Below are positions 15,144-27,020 of a stretch of 43,794 bases of DNA, piece by piece. The stretch's first letter is position 1, and each line of letters begins with the position of its first letter. The DNA is from Longimicrobiaceae bacterium (GTDB taxonomy: Bacteria > Gemmatimonadota > Gemmatimonadetes > Longimicrobiales > Longimicrobiaceae). Location of the stretch: the NCBI GenBank assembly GCA_035696245.1, contig DASRQW010000050.1, forward strand, positions 1-43,794, given 5' to 3'. The notes below the pieces were generated by a model that did no database searches, was not told the DNA's origin, and saw only the letters and a list, made by a program, of their open reading frames with translations. Position numbers and translations under genes: made by a program.

Positions 15144-15318
15144 CTTCCGCGATGTTGAGGGATGCGGGGCCGGGGGACGATGGAAGAGTAGCCGCCCGCA
15201 CCGGCGCGAAAAAGACCGGCGGCGGGTTTGATACGTGCCGGGCGATGCGATACGTTGTCATCGCGCCGGCTTCCATCCGCCGAGCGCGGGCCTTCGCCAC
15301 GGATCGCCAGGGAAAACG

Positions 15319-16092
15319 ATGAAGATCTTCCTCAGCTGGTCCGGCGAGCGAAGCCGCGGCCTGGCGGCGGTGCTGAAATCGTGGCTGCCCCTCGTGTTGC
15401 AGTACGCCGAGCCGTGGATGTCAGACGACATCCCGGCCGGGAGCCGCTGGAGCACCGAGATCGGCGCGGCGCTCGCGACGGCGGAGTTCGGCATCGTCTG
15501 CGTGAGCAAGGCCAACGTCAATGCGCCCTGGCTGCATTTCGAGGCAGGCGCGATCTCCAGCTCGGCCGGGGCCGACGCCGTCTGCCCGCTGCTGATCGAC
15601 CTTGCGTTCGAAGAGCTTTCCGGACCGCTGAGCCAGTTCCAGGCGAAGCGGCTCGACAAAGCCTCGATGCACACCGTGGTCCGGTCGATCAACGACCGTG
15701 CGGGCGAGAGGCGGCTCGACCCACAGCGTCTCGCGCATCTGGTGGACGTCCTCTGGCCCGTGTTCCTCAGCGAGTGGGCGCGGATTCCTGGCCATCCAGC
15801 CGAGACGCACGTCGAGACATCTCCCGCGCTCCCATCTTCCGGTGCCGAGAGCAGGACGTATCCGGTGACGAGACGGAAGCGGGCCTGCGTCCCGCTCTCC
15901 GACCTCCTCGGCACGGTCGAGCTCTCCGTGCGCGCGAAGCCGCTGGGGAGCGTGGCGGGCGAGATTGGAGTGGGTGGCGAGACGTTGCGCAAGCTGCTGA
16001 CCGGTGCCGACATGCATGCACGGACGGTGCTTCGGCTCGAAGAGTGGTACTGGCGATCTGGCGGGTACAGACCCACGCCGCACGTAACCTGA
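15319..16092 (+). CDS. TIR-domain protein with possible C-terminal helix-turn-helix
   Basis: This 257-residue protein starts at an ATG preceded by AGGGA 5 bases upstream; an upstream in-frame GTG/ATG region lacks homology. Residues 1-155 form a bacterial TIR domain: MKIFLSWSGE, WMSDDIPAGSRW, the strand EFGIVCVSK, and PWLHFEAGA with Glu75 at the position of the NADase glutamate. A linker rich in Pro/Ser follows (about 157-185). The last 60 residues (AGEIGVGGETLRKLLTG, then HARTVLRLEEWYW) look like a small helical DNA-binding module. Bacterial TIR proteins often hydrolyse NAD or make cyclic ADP-ribose signals in phage defence. The stop is 11 bases before purD, suggesting co-transcription. Confidence 0.85.
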   Translation: MKIFLSWSGERSRGLAAVLKSWLPLVLQYAEPWMSDDIPAGSRWSTEIGAALATAEFGIVCVSKANVNAPWLHFEAGAISSSAGADAVCPLLIDLAFEELSGPLSQFQAKRLDKASMHTVVRSINDRAGERRLDPQRLAHLVDVLWPVFLSEWARIPGHPAETHVETSPALPSSGAESRTYPVTRRKRACVPLSDLLGTVELSVRAKPLGSVAGEIGVGGETLRKLLTGADMHARTVLRLEEWYWRSGGYRPTPHVT

Positions 16093-16103: not shown

Positions 16104-17414
16104 GTGAAGATCCTGATCGTAGGCAACGGCGGGCGCGAGCACGCGCTACTGTGGAAGCTGCGGCGCGACGCGCCCGGCGCCGACCTCTTCGTGACGCGCG
16201 CCAACGGCGGCATGGGCGGCCTGGCCACCTCGCTCGACATCGCCCCGGGCGACATTGGCGGCCTGGCGGACTGGGCGGCGTGGAACGGCGCGGGCCTCAC
16301 CGTCGTGGGCCCGGAGATCCCGCTTGACGAGGGGATCGTGGACGCGTTCGTGGCGCGCGGCCTTCCCATCTTCGGCCCCACGCAGGCCGCCGCGCGCATC
16401 GAGAGCTCCAAGGCGTTCTCCAAGCGGCTCATGCGCGACTACGGCATCCCCACCGCCGCCTTCCGGCGCTACTCCTCTACCGACATCGCCACGTTCGACG
16501 CCGATGAGGCGAAGCTGCGGGGGATGGGCGAGTTGCGCGTCGTCAAGGCGTCCGGCCTCGCCGCGGGCAAGGGCGTGCTCGTCTGCGAGACGGTGGACGA
16601 GGCGATCGACGCCGCGCGCGAGATGCTGGCGGGCGACAGCTTCGGTGCCGCCGGGCGCGAGGTGGTGATCGAGGAGTTCATGCACGGCGAGGAGCTTTCC
16701 GTCTTCGCGCTGACGGACGGCACGAACGTCGTGCCCATGCTGCCCGCGCAGGACCACAAGCGCATCGGCGAGGGCGAGACGGGGCCGAACACCGGCGGGA
16801 TGGGCGCCTACGCCCCGGTCGCGCTCGCCACGCCGGAGCTGATGCGGCAGGTCACGGAAGAGATCCTGCGCCCCACCGTCGCCGCCCTGGCCGCCGAAGG
16901 GCACCCCTTCCGCGGCCTGCTCTACGCCGGGCTCATGCTCACCGAAACGGGACCGCGCGTGGTGGAGTTCAACTGCCGTTTCGGCGACCCGGAGACGCAG
17001 GTGGTGCTTCCCCTGCTCGCATCTTCCCTGCTGGACCCGCTGCTCGCCATCGCCCGCGGCGAATCCATCGCGGGAGCATCCCTCGAGTGGCGTTCGGACG
17101 CGGCGGTCACCACCGTGCTCGCCTCCGGCGGCTACCCGGGCGACTACCACTCCGGCATCCCCATCCACGTCGATCCCGCGATCGAGAGCATGGACGACGT
17201 CCTCGTCTTCCACGCCGGCACGAAGACCTCGGCAGATGGCACTCTCGTGACTTCCGGCGGCCGGGTGATGGCTGTGACCGCGCTCGCCCCCACCGTCGGG
17301 GAGGCGGCGGAGCGCAGCCGGGCGGCGGCGGATATGGTCGGGTTCGACGGGCGCTACTTCCGCCGCGACATCGCCCATCGCGAGGTCGCCCGCACGGAGG
17401 TGGCGCGTGCCTGA
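16104..17414 (+). CDS. purD: Phosphoribosylamine-glycine ligase
   Basis: PurD joins glycine to phosphoribosylamine with ATP in the second step of purine synthesis. The 436-residue protein begins at GTG (KILIVGNGGREHAL is the N-terminal nucleotide-binding motif). The central ATP-grasp domain includes RVVKASGLAAGKGVLV, QDHKRIGEGETGPNTGGMGAY and the metal-binding VVEFNCRFGDPE. The C-terminal domain carries the usual VLASGGYPGDY and FHAGT. Length is typical for the family. It overlaps mutM by 8 bases and follows the TIR gene by 11 bases. Confidence 0.97.
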   Translation: MKILIVGNGGREHALLWKLRRDAPGADLFVTRANGGMGGLATSLDIAPGDIGGLADWAAWNGAGLTVVGPEIPLDEGIVDAFVARGLPIFGPTQAAARIESSKAFSKRLMRDYGIPTAAFRRYSSTDIATFDADEAKLRGMGELRVVKASGLAAGKGVLVCETVDEAIDAAREMLAGDSFGAAGREVVIEEFMHGEELSVFALTDGTNVVPMLPAQDHKRIGEGETGPNTGGMGAYAPVALATPELMRQVTEEILRPTVAALAAEGHPFRGLLYAGLMLTETGPRVVEFNCRFGDPETQVVLPLLASSLLDPLLAIARGESIAGASLEWRSDAAVTTVLASGGYPGDYHSGIPIHVDPAIESMDDVLVFHAGTKTSADGTLVTSGGRVMAVTALAPTVGEAAERSRAAADMVGFDGRYFRRDIAHREVARTEVARA

Positions 17415-18374: not shown

Positions 18375-19652
18375 ATGCCTCAATTTCGCTACGGGCTGCC
18401 GCAGGGCGACGCGAATCGCCGGTGGCGCGTTCCCCCCGCCATACCCTCCGCTCCCGGCGACGAGGTGATGGAGGGGCTGAACGTGCTGGACGAGCTTCCC
18501 GGCGAGCCGGGGCTGGTGCTGTGGCAGGCGTTGCGCGACGTGCTGCTGTGGGCCGGCGCCTCGCCCGAGGCCCGCAGCGGCCTCTTCCCCGCCGCGGCCG
18601 AGACTGCGCGCGTGGCCGCCATGCTCGCCGCGCCCGTGCCCCGCGAGCTGGAGCCCGCGCTGATGACGCTGGCCCGCCTGGGCGCCCGCGGACTGCTGGA
18701 GGAGCCCGTCGCCCTCGCCTGCCGCGAGATCTCGCAATGGCTGGACGAGCGCGGCCTGCTCGCCTCCGCGCTGGCGTTCGCGCACGCCGCCGCGTCGGTG
18801 GCGGTGGGAGATGCGGGCGCCGCCTTCGCCGTGGGCCGCCTGGCCCGCCGCCGTGCGGAGAATGCCCGCGCCGAGGCGTGGTTCAACCGCTCCGTCGTGC
18901 TCGCGCGGCAGGCGGGCGACTGGGGCACCTGCGTGCGCGCGTACATGGGCCTGGGCGTGCTGCACGTGCAGCGCGGCGCGCTCCCCGCCGCGCGCCGCGC
19001 CCGCCTGCGTGCCCTTCGCGCCGCCCGCACCGGCGCGACGCCGGACTACGCAGCGCTGGTGCTGCACGACCTCTTCCTGCTGGCCGTGGAGATGGGCGAC
19101 TGCGCGCGGGCGGACGAGTACGCGGCCGCCGCCTACGCCGCATACTCGTCGACCCACGCCCGCATCCCCGTGCTGGCGCACGACGTGGCGTACTACTGGA
19201 CCACACAGGGCGGCTTCGCACACGCGCTGCCGGTCTTGGAGGGCGTGCTCCCCCGCCTGCCCGGCGAGCGCCTGTGCGTGCTCTCCGTGCTCGCCCGCGC
19301 GGCCGGCGGGGCGGGGCGCCGCGACCGGTTCGACAGCGCGTGGGACGCGGTGTGGAGCGAGATCGGGAACGACGCCGCGGGCGAGAAGACCGCCGCGGTG
19401 CTGCTCGACCTCGCCCACGGCGCAGTGAGCCTCAAGGACTGGGTTCGCGCCGAGATCGCGGCATCGCAGGCCCTGGCGCTCGCCACCGCCCGCGGCGAGG
19501 CCCGCGTGCGCCTCACCGCCGAGGCGCTGCTGGACTGCGCCGTGCACCACCGCGGCGTGGAAGCCCGCACCCGGGCGGCCCGCGCCGCCGCGTCCGACCG
19601 GGCCGCCGCCGCCCTCGCCGCCGAGCTGGTCAGCGCCCTCTCCGCCGCCTGA
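18375..19652 (+). CDS. TPR-like helical repeat protein of unknown function
   Basis: The 425-residue protein starts at an ATG (MPQFRYGLPQGDANRRW) in a longer open frame whose upstream part is a shadow of mutM. After a short N-terminal tail, a segment DELPGEPGLVLWQALRDVLLW leads into alternating Ala-rich helices with the small-large pattern of TPRs through residue 420 (for example AEAWFNRSVVLARQAGDWGTCVRAYMGLGVLHVQRGALPAARRAR, here described by its residues about 172-216). There is no signal peptide, membrane segment or enzyme motif, so it is likely a cytoplasmic scaffold or sensor. It lies 150 bases after mutM. Similar proteins are common in Longimicrobium-type genomes, by recollection. Confidence 0.8.
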   Translation: MPQFRYGLPQGDANRRWRVPPAIPSAPGDEVMEGLNVLDELPGEPGLVLWQALRDVLLWAGASPEARSGLFPAAAETARVAAMLAAPVPRELEPALMTLARLGARGLLEEPVALACREISQWLDERGLLASALAFAHAAASVAVGDAGAAFAVGRLARRRAENARAEAWFNRSVVLARQAGDWGTCVRAYMGLGVLHVQRGALPAARRARLRALRAARTGATPDYAALVLHDLFLLAVEMGDCARADEYAAAAYAAYSSTHARIPVLAHDVAYYWTTQGGFAHALPVLEGVLPRLPGERLCVLSVLARAAGGAGRRDRFDSAWDAVWSEIGNDAAGEKTAAVLLDLAHGAVSLKDWVRAEIAASQALALATARGEARVRLTAEALLDCAVHHRGVEARTRAARAAASDRAAAALAAELVSALSAA

Positions 19653-25670: not shown

Positions 25671-26572
25671 GCGAGCAGCCTTCCCCCCAGCACAACCAGG
25701 AAGAAGACGACGGAGATGACGCCGTTGATCGTGAAGAACGCCGCGTCGATCTTCGAGAAGTCGTCGTGCTTCACCAGGCTCTGCTCGTACACCAGCATCG
25801 CGGCGATCACTCCCACCGCGGCGAAGTACGTCCTCCCCAGATCCGGCAGCAGCAGCCCGACGGACAGCAGGCAGAGCGCCGCGCACACGTGCAGGAAGCG
25901 CGACGCCAGCAGCGCGCCCTTCGCCCCCAGCGCGGCGGGAATCGAGTGCAGCCCCTCCGCACGGTCGAATTCGATGTCCTGCAGCGAGTAGAGGATGTCG
26001 AACCCGGCGCCCCAGCACAGCACCGCTCCCGCCAGCGCGAGCAGCGCCGTCCACGGCTGGCTCCAGCGCCCTGCGACCGCCAGGTACGCCCCGACCGGCG
26101 CGATGCCCATCGCGAAGCCGAGGAAGACGTGAGCGAAACGCGTGAACCGCTTCGTGTACGAGTAGAAGAAGACGCAGCCCAGCGCCAGCGGCGACAGCTT
26201 CAAGCAGAGCGGGTTGAGGAAGCCGGCCGCGGCGATGAAGATCGCGCTCGCGACGACCACGGCCACGGCCGCCTGCCGCACCGACAGCTTGCCTGACGGG
26301 ATCTCGCGCATCAGCGTGCGTGGGTTCTTCGCGTCGATCGCGCGGTCGGCGATGCGGTTGAAGCCCATCGCCGCGAACCGCGCCGCCGTGAACGCCACCA
26401 GGATCAGCACCACCTCGCGCGCCGTCACCGGGTAGCGGTACGACGCGAGCGTCGCCCCCACCAGCGCAAACGGCATGGCGAACACCGTGTGCGGCAGCTT
26501 CACCAGGTTCGAATAGTCCACCAACCGCCCGCTCCCGCGAACGTGCTGCCCCTCCATCGTGCGCTCACTCAT
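25667..26572 (-). CDS. ubiA: UbiA-family prenyltransferase (probably MqnP-type)
   Basis: This 301-residue integral membrane enzyme joins a polyprenyl chain to an aromatic ring. Two Asp-rich motifs bind the magnesium-diphosphate: FNRIADRAIDAKNPRT (N72-D80) and LQDIEFDRAEGLHSIP (D199 and D203). About eight or nine hydrophobic helices are seen. Association with ubiX, ubiD and ubiE/menG, without other ubiquinone genes, points to the futalosine menaquinone route, where MqnP prenylates 1,4-dihydroxy-6-naphthoate. The ATG at 26570-26572 overlaps the upstream nucleotidyltransferase gene by 8 bases; a second ATG is five codons later. Confidence 0.93.
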   Translation of the reverse strand: MSERTMEGQHVRGSGRLVDYSNLVKLPHTVFAMPFALVGATLASYRYPVTAREVVLILVAFTAARFAAMGFNRIADRAIDAKNPRTLMREIPSGKLSVRQAAVAVVVASAIFIAAAGFLNPLCLKLSPLALGCVFFYSYTKRFTRFAHVFLGFAMGIAPVGAYLAVAGRWSQPWTALLALAGAVLCWGAGFDILYSLQDIEFDRAEGLHSIPAALGAKGALLASRFLHVCAALCLLSVGLLLPDLGRTYFAAVGVIAAMLVYEQSLVKHDDFSKIDAAFFTINGVISVVFFLVVLGGRLLA

Positions 26573-27020
26573 CGCGTTGCTGCTCCTCGAGCATGATGAC
26601 GTCGGCCACATCCTTCGGCCGGCCGGTTGCTCGCTTGTTGGCCAACAGATGCTTCCGGCTCAACACCGGGACCATCACTCCATCCACGGGATGGTACTCG
26701 CGCTCGGCCCACGCTTCCTCGAACGTGACCCCGTCGATCTCCGTCAGCATGTCGATCCGTGCGGGAACGACTCCGATCTGGTAGAACATCCCGGGGCGAG
26801 CCAGCTCATCCACGGTGAGATTGCTGATTGGAGCGCCGTAGCGCGCCAATGCCCTCCACACGCGCGACGCGTTCTCCGGGTCGGGCCGCAGCCAGAAATC
26901 CATGTCACCCGTCGCTCTCGGCATCCCGTGGGCCGCGAGGGCGAACGCGCCGATCACCAGGAACTCAGCGCCCTCGGCGAACAATTCCTCCAACATGTCT
27001 CTGTAGTCTGAACTCAGCAT
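26565..27020 (-). CDS. Nucleotidyltransferase-fold protein, possible toxin-antitoxin component
   Basis: The 151-residue protein contains the nucleotidyltransferase signature GAFALAAHGMPRATGDMDFWL (residues about 24-44), with the GxxxxxxHGxxRxTxDxD pattern of the AbiEii/DUF6036-like group. A second acidic region (PARIDMLTEI, about residues 88-97) gives the third metal ligand. Such proteins act either as toxins or as antitoxins in two-gene modules. The ATG at 27018-27020 has AAGGGGTG upstream. It overlaps the small upstream gene by about 56 bases and ubiA by 8, so all are translated from one message. It has no obvious place in quinone synthesis. Confidence 0.85.
   Translation of the reverse strand: MLSSDYRDMLEELFAEGAEFLVIGAFALAAHGMPRATGDMDFWLRPDPENASRVWRALARYGAPISNLTVDELARPGMFYQIGVVPARIDMLTEIDGVTFEEAWAEREYHPVDGVMVPVLSRKHLLANKRATGRPKDVADVIMLEEQQRDE

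Follow-up and report, generated by a model that had tools for sequence, protein, structure and literature searches.

Described TIR systems nearest to the locus

The TIR domains of SPARTA TIR-APAZ, AbTir, SpbK and Thoeris ThsB cleave NAD or make signals from NAD. To our knowledge, little is understood of the way in which TIR enzymes of the solitary kind detect an infection. The nearest described system is the TIR-TM type of P2-AC1, for which protection of E. coli from lambda, LF82_P8 and P2 was found both in the AC1 lysogen and with the cloned three-gene locus, which encodes the TIR and transmembrane proteins (Rousset et al., PMC9122126). The PADLOC profile TIR-TM (PDLC03016) matches the AC1 protein at 2.7e-118. 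A more distant case is Swarozyc, whose HTH/winged AUX subunit binds the phage portal (PMC13174449).

We analysed a window of 43,794 nucleotides, which carries a gene for a TIR domain followed by a C-terminal tail with a predicted helix-turn-helix (TIR-HTH). The TIR type is shared with AC1 (profile 2e-53), but the transmembrane partner genes of AC1 have no counterpart adjoining TIR-HTH, where a YjbR-family gene, purD and mutM are found instead, and the C-terminal part of the profile is unrelated to the tail. Because the membrane partner is missing and the shared part of the profile does not extend beyond the TIR, we excluded TIR-HTH as a member of the AC1 system, while retaining it as a TIR of the AC1 type. 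The TIR fold is also common to SPARTA TIR-APAZ, AbTir, SpbK and ThsB; however, there is no APAZ in the 257 amino acids and no Argonaute neighbour, no ThsA (SIR2-SLOG or TM) among the neighbouring genes, and the sensor domain of SpbK is absent. Swarozyc resembles TIR-HTH in pairing a NADase with an HTH-like part, but it consists of two proteins, its NADase is of a different family (DUF4062 TIR-like) and its AUX subunit engages the portal; no sequence link is expected.

A preceding reading of the DNA made from its letters alone (hereafter the sequence-only reading) had described this TIR gene as alone, and with the neighbouring genes now identified this stands, since no Thoeris, Argonaute or SIR2 gene adjoins it. 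Its more general remark, which assigns the majority of TIR proteins in bacteria to Thoeris or to loci with Argonaute/SIR2 partners, understates how common the solitary type is: scans found relatives of this TIR on 316 contigs from genomes and 91 from viruses, in addition to plasmid and phage records.

The TIR-HTH gene and its TIR domain

Reading-frame analysis of the window gave an open frame on the forward strand (Table 1), with a good ribosome-binding sequence (AGGGA) placed 6-7 nt 5' of the ATG. Pfam TIR_2 matched residues 3-110 (E 1.1e-8) and PADLOC TIR-TM matched the whole of the TIR domain at E 2e-53, covering profile positions 1-167 of 293 only, while a search of NCBIfam with the protein returned no match. 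The AlphaFold2 model built with 55 homologues exceeded a pLDDT of 90 almost throughout residues 1-155, and Foldseek matched the model to SPARTA TIR-APAZ, plant TIRs, AbTir, SARM1 and SpbK, with TM-scores that are depressed by the unresolved tail. Residue E75, within FEAGA, is invariant across 56 aligned homologues and aligns with the glutamate of AbTir and that of an Arabidopsis TIR, which is catalytic in both. The modelled fold and this glutamate together make us confident that the protein belongs to the TIR domain superfamily. The alignment also suggests that E75 is a glutamate of the catalytic type and that the protein would cleave NAD. The sequence-only reading was thus right that the FEAG glutamate is kept.

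Table 1. Features of the TIR-HTH locus, in positions of the window.
Feature	Position	Strand	Basis or remark
Intergenic region, 175 bp, separating the TIR gene from a divergently oriented YjbR-family gene	15144..15318	.	without the family operator-like site
TIR-HTH fusion gene, 257 aa	15319..16092	+	open reading frame, ATG to stop; GC3 0.849
TIR domain, residues 1-166	15319..15816	+	Pfam TIR_2, PADLOC TIR-TM, AlphaFold2, Foldseek
E75 codon, FEAG motif, predicted catalytic glutamate	15541..15543	+	conservation and alignment to the AbTir and plant TIR glutamate
Linker, residues 167-188, predicted disordered	15817..15882	+	pLDDT about 50
Possible internal GTG start of a free 75-aa HTH protein	15865..15867	+	AGGA at 15853-15856, 8 nt upstream; weak
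Predicted HTH module of the lambda-repressor-like kind, residues 189-254; belongs to a family of small proteins that is expanded in the window's bacterial family	15883..16080	+	homology and fold model
Predicted recognition helix GETLRKLLT (family usual: SP[TS]GLxKFL)	15976..16002	+	AlphaFold2, helix 39-47 of the tail model
purD, neighbour only, unlinked in relatives	16104..17414	+	

The GC3 of the gene is lower than that of nearly all other genes of the window (0.90-0.98) and falls to its lowest value in the tail (0.80), which suggests a recent acquisition. There is no defence island around it, the neighbours being purD, mutM, the YjbR-family gene and an efflux set. A 10-bp tandem repeat at 15294-15313, 5' of the ATG, was set aside as compatible with chance (roughly estimated at about 0.1).

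The fusion is known only from the genome of the window itself. It was found neither in 395 genomes of the phylum nor among 162 TIR homologues from the genome and viral scans, nor in plasmids or phages; these searches covered the best 80 loci of each scan, so rarer occurrences are possible. A scan of genome contigs with the single TIR-HTH protein as query gave no matches, and we found no report in the open-access literature of a single protein that joins a TIR to an HTH tail at its C-terminus.

The loci of TIR relatives that were read closely include moron-like sites in prophage regions, flanked by Q and holin genes, as well as small plasmids and the P2-AC1 defence hotspot, where the AC1 protein is about 42% identical over the TIR. 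By sequence, the TIR of TIR-HTH is a member of a widespread, phage-borne group. One plasmid with a member of this group, the 14-kb pGT2 of Acidithiobacillus ferriphilus, carries three TIR-domain genes.

The C-terminal tail

Pfam gave no HTH match in the TIR-HTH protein, but the tail could be related to a family of small stand-alone HTH proteins, on members of which Pfam gives sub-threshold HTH_31/HTH_3 matches. Residues 189-254 matched these proteins at profile E values of about 1e-25 to 6e-27, with a profile (alignment A1) that includes the tail itself as one row; a single-sequence phmmer search with the tail against small proteins of the window's bacterial family gave a best value of 2.5e-9, the others being weaker. 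The family has five copies in the window's genome and between one and 24 in 15 of the 21 same-family genomes searched, this one counted, and it is present on viral contigs too. Identity of the tail to its members does not exceed 36%, and the core residues of the family are retained. The HTH module is thus homologous, but the stand-alone proteins have about 60 further residues and often a tandem operator-like site, whereas the tail has neither and lies C-terminal to a TIR. These sequence comparisons indicate that the tail module belongs to, and would derive from, the lineage's own small-HTH family.

AlphaFold2 left the tail unresolved when the whole protein was modelled with an alignment that held no HTH homologues. 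Modelled separately with three viral homologues, the tail gave four helices with pLDDT 75-87 and the HTH at model residues 28-47. The Foldseek matches of this model were nearly all to lambda-repressor-like DNA-binding proteins (434 Cro, HipB, XRE, phage repressors and HigA), with probabilities up to 0.99 and E values of 0.3-2, as expected for a small domain. Searching the sequences of the PDB with the HTH profile returned beta-lactamases alongside HTH proteins, a result that is uninformative taken alone. The models support a four-helix lambda-repressor-like HTH fold for the tail, for which DNA binding would be a predicted function. The sequence-only reading had guessed at a C-terminal HTH and proposed a structure prediction of this region; the guess now has support at the level of the fold, and the observation of a real TIR protein ending in an HTH is confirmed by the open reading frame, the Pfam and PADLOC matches, AlphaFold2 and Foldseek.

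An operator-like site in the small-HTH family

The intergenic regions of the stand-alone small-HTH genes have in common a tandem site, GTRGACARAGTRGAC. The best upstream match had at most two mismatches in 23 of the 61 domain places scanned, against an average of 5.1 in shuffled controls; this sample was partly selected for divergent TPR neighbours and includes a few spurious frames, which makes the fraction a rough one. Exact matches occur only twice in the window's genome, each 5' of a small-HTH gene. The scanned region upstream of the TIR-HTH gene lacks the tandem site, as do those of many other family members, and the recognition helix of the tail deviates, reading GETLRKL where the family has SP[TS]GLxKF. 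The missing site and the altered helix make DNA binding by the tail doubtful.

Examples of the tandem site are G000:C75:1773-1787 and G000:C203:3918-3932 in the window's genome and one in the L310 intergenic region; some sites are also inverted. Two distant small-HTH relatives (L030, L034) have CTGCACAAACTGCAC in the same arrangement, which suggests that the two sequences may be co-varying candidate operators. Among the best 100 small-HTH genes, 17 lie within 1.5 kb of a gene for a TPR protein of one family, where 0.7 would be expected by chance, and all 17 are divergent from it. The TPR family has about 20 paralogues per genome; divergent pairs are found at L304-L319, L053, L059, L061 and L063 and on contig C75 of the window's own genome. 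The pair looks like a lineage-specific regulator pair. The window has a TPR gene for comparison (18468-19652), which was rejected as a partner of the TIR: it adjoins mutM in at least nine relatives without the TIR and so belongs to the core synteny.

Winged-HTH tails on related TIR proteins

Eight TIR proteins of the same type from further families of this order, and those of two viral contigs, end in a winged-HTH tail (loci L116, L004, L120-L123, L130, L131, L236 and L240); we found no description of such proteins in the papers that we found. They resemble TIR-HTH in total length and in having a DNA-binding-like fold at the C-terminus. The profile of their tails matches Sso10a-2 and other winged-helix DNA-binding proteins, but compared with the lambda-type tail it gave a probability of only 5.7%, and the two HTH types are thus unrelated. 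The winged-HTH proteins are a single group in the tree of TIR domains (100/91), whereas the window TIR falls in a separate, well supported clade of 46 rows (100/93), many members of which have another conserved C-terminal region. Unrelated tails on separate TIR clades imply that HTH tails were gained at least twice, independently. Across the TIR group the C-terminal region is a long conserved one in many proteins, a winged HTH in ten and a lambda-type HTH once, as expected of an interchangeable sensor or regulator. That a TIR core has twice acquired repressor-like tails from different sources makes the tail a strong candidate for a sensor or switch, and TIR-HTH, as a small two-domain protein, is amenable to testing this.

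The purD neighbourhood

The sequence-only reading placed the TIR gene 11 bases upstream of purD in the same direction, and this was borne out: purD starts with GTG at 16104, 11 bp past the TIR stop, and is followed by mutM. A crude sigma-70 scan found no recognisable promoter between the TIR gene and purD. However, none of the 18 same-family genomes with a purD region has a TIR or HTH gene upstream of purD, and a conserved purD-TIR pairing is therefore rejected; mutM follows purD in nearly all of them. The genes that lie 5' of the TIR in the window likewise had no homologues at these 18 loci (genes there having been called with a simple GC-frame caller), which puts the TIR gene at a point of rearrangement. 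The TIR relatives elsewhere lie in prophages, on plasmids and at unrelated loci, with none beside purD in the loci read. The position beside purD is best read as a chance insertion, incidental to one genome, perhaps with read-through into purD.

The window's genome has a second TIR of the same group (G000:C354:2304, the same as L002:1504-2259), 46% identical over the TIR and with a different C-terminus. It sits just downstream of a dihydrolipoamide-acyltransferase-like (2-oxoglutarate-dehydrogenase-E2-like) gene, with no conserved link evident.

Weighing the explanations

In our judgement TIR-HTH is probably a solitary TIR enzyme of the TIR-TM or P2-AC1 type, most likely a NAD-consuming abortive-infection effector, in which a repressor-type HTH of the host lineage has taken the place of the C-terminal region usual for the type and serves as a control or trigger module. 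Bound to DNA or dimerised, the HTH tail would keep the TIR domains separate, or else it would bind an infection cue; engagement of the tail would then let the TIR domains cluster, E75 would cleave NAD, and the infected cell would stop growing. We read the protein as a defence enzyme of the solitary TIR type because of its TIR fold with the invariant glutamate, the fold matches to defence TIRs (SPARTA, AbTir, SpbK), the relatives in phages, plasmids and prophages, and the protection given by AC1. The variable C-terminal region of the group, the HTH fold of the tail, the low GC3 and the lack of a purD link in 18 genomes also speak for this reading. Against this stand the lack of an AC1-like transmembrane partner, of a defence island and of the operator-like site, the altered recognition helix, and the restriction to one genome. 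Of the two possibilities offered by the sequence-only reading, the arrival of a defence gene in a housekeeping operon fits this evidence, the defence role being a prediction. The other, which would connect purine synthesis with transcription and the cleavage of NAD, is unsupported. It would make TIR-HTH a regulator that senses or makes a NAD-derived signal and controls purD and mutM, and the short distance to purD in the same direction, the HTH fold and the missing promoter speak for it. We consider it very improbable, given the 18 of 18 purD loci without the gene, the relatives that lie away from purD, the upstream flank unlike that of relatives and the second TIR beside an E2-like gene; the adjacency is not worth pursuing as a metabolic link.

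The remaining explanations differ in what they assign to the tail. If the protein works, there is about an even chance that the tail binds DNA, which fits its parentage; binding of a phage protein, which fits the missing operator and the Swarozyc precedent, is a lesser possibility, and some other function is less likely again. Taken as an explanation of the whole protein, a tail that senses a phage protein instead of DNA and triggers the TIR, by analogy with the Swarozyc AUX subunit (PMC13174449), is unlikely: HTH and winged folds can act as portal sensors, the tail has an altered recognition helix and its gene no operator-like site, and in sister families a winged HTH of an unrelated kind takes up the same position at the C-terminus of the TIRs, but the proteins closest to the tail are small and repressor-like, and the tandem site precedes many of their genes, which argues for DNA binding in the family. 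That TIR and HTH were recently fused by chance and are drifting without a selected function seems somewhat less likely still. The single genome, on account of which purifying selection cannot be demonstrated for the fusion, would agree with this, as would the divergent tail, the lowered GC3 and the lack of an operator, but the reading frame is unbroken, the TIR core and E75 are preserved, and the tail still has the core residues of its family and a foldable HTH. An autoregulated arrangement resembling a toxin-antitoxin pair, in which a free HTH protein from the internal GTG would heterodimerise with the full-length TIR and restrain it, appears improbable. The GTG and AGGA lie where some stand-alone members (L006, L017) begin with V-T, and the tail fold resembles the HipB and HigA antitoxins, but the ribosome-binding match is short and could be due to chance, with no relative on which to judge its conservation.

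Plant TIR-NLR proteins offer one further comparison, as RRS1 carries an integrated WRKY DNA-binding domain. By analogy, the HTH of TIR-HTH might be an integrated decoy that switches on NAD cleavage when it engages phage operator DNA or a phage repressor, and unrelated HTH types would have been put to this use on two or more occasions. We regard this as a speculative and rather improbable reading; if true, it would be a bacterial parallel to RRS1.

Elsewhere in the window, a small gene on the reverse strand (26565-26996), nucleotidyltransferase-like by eye and with a GC3 of 0.83, lies between a prenyltransferase-like and a UbiD-like gene and is likely another recent acquisition.
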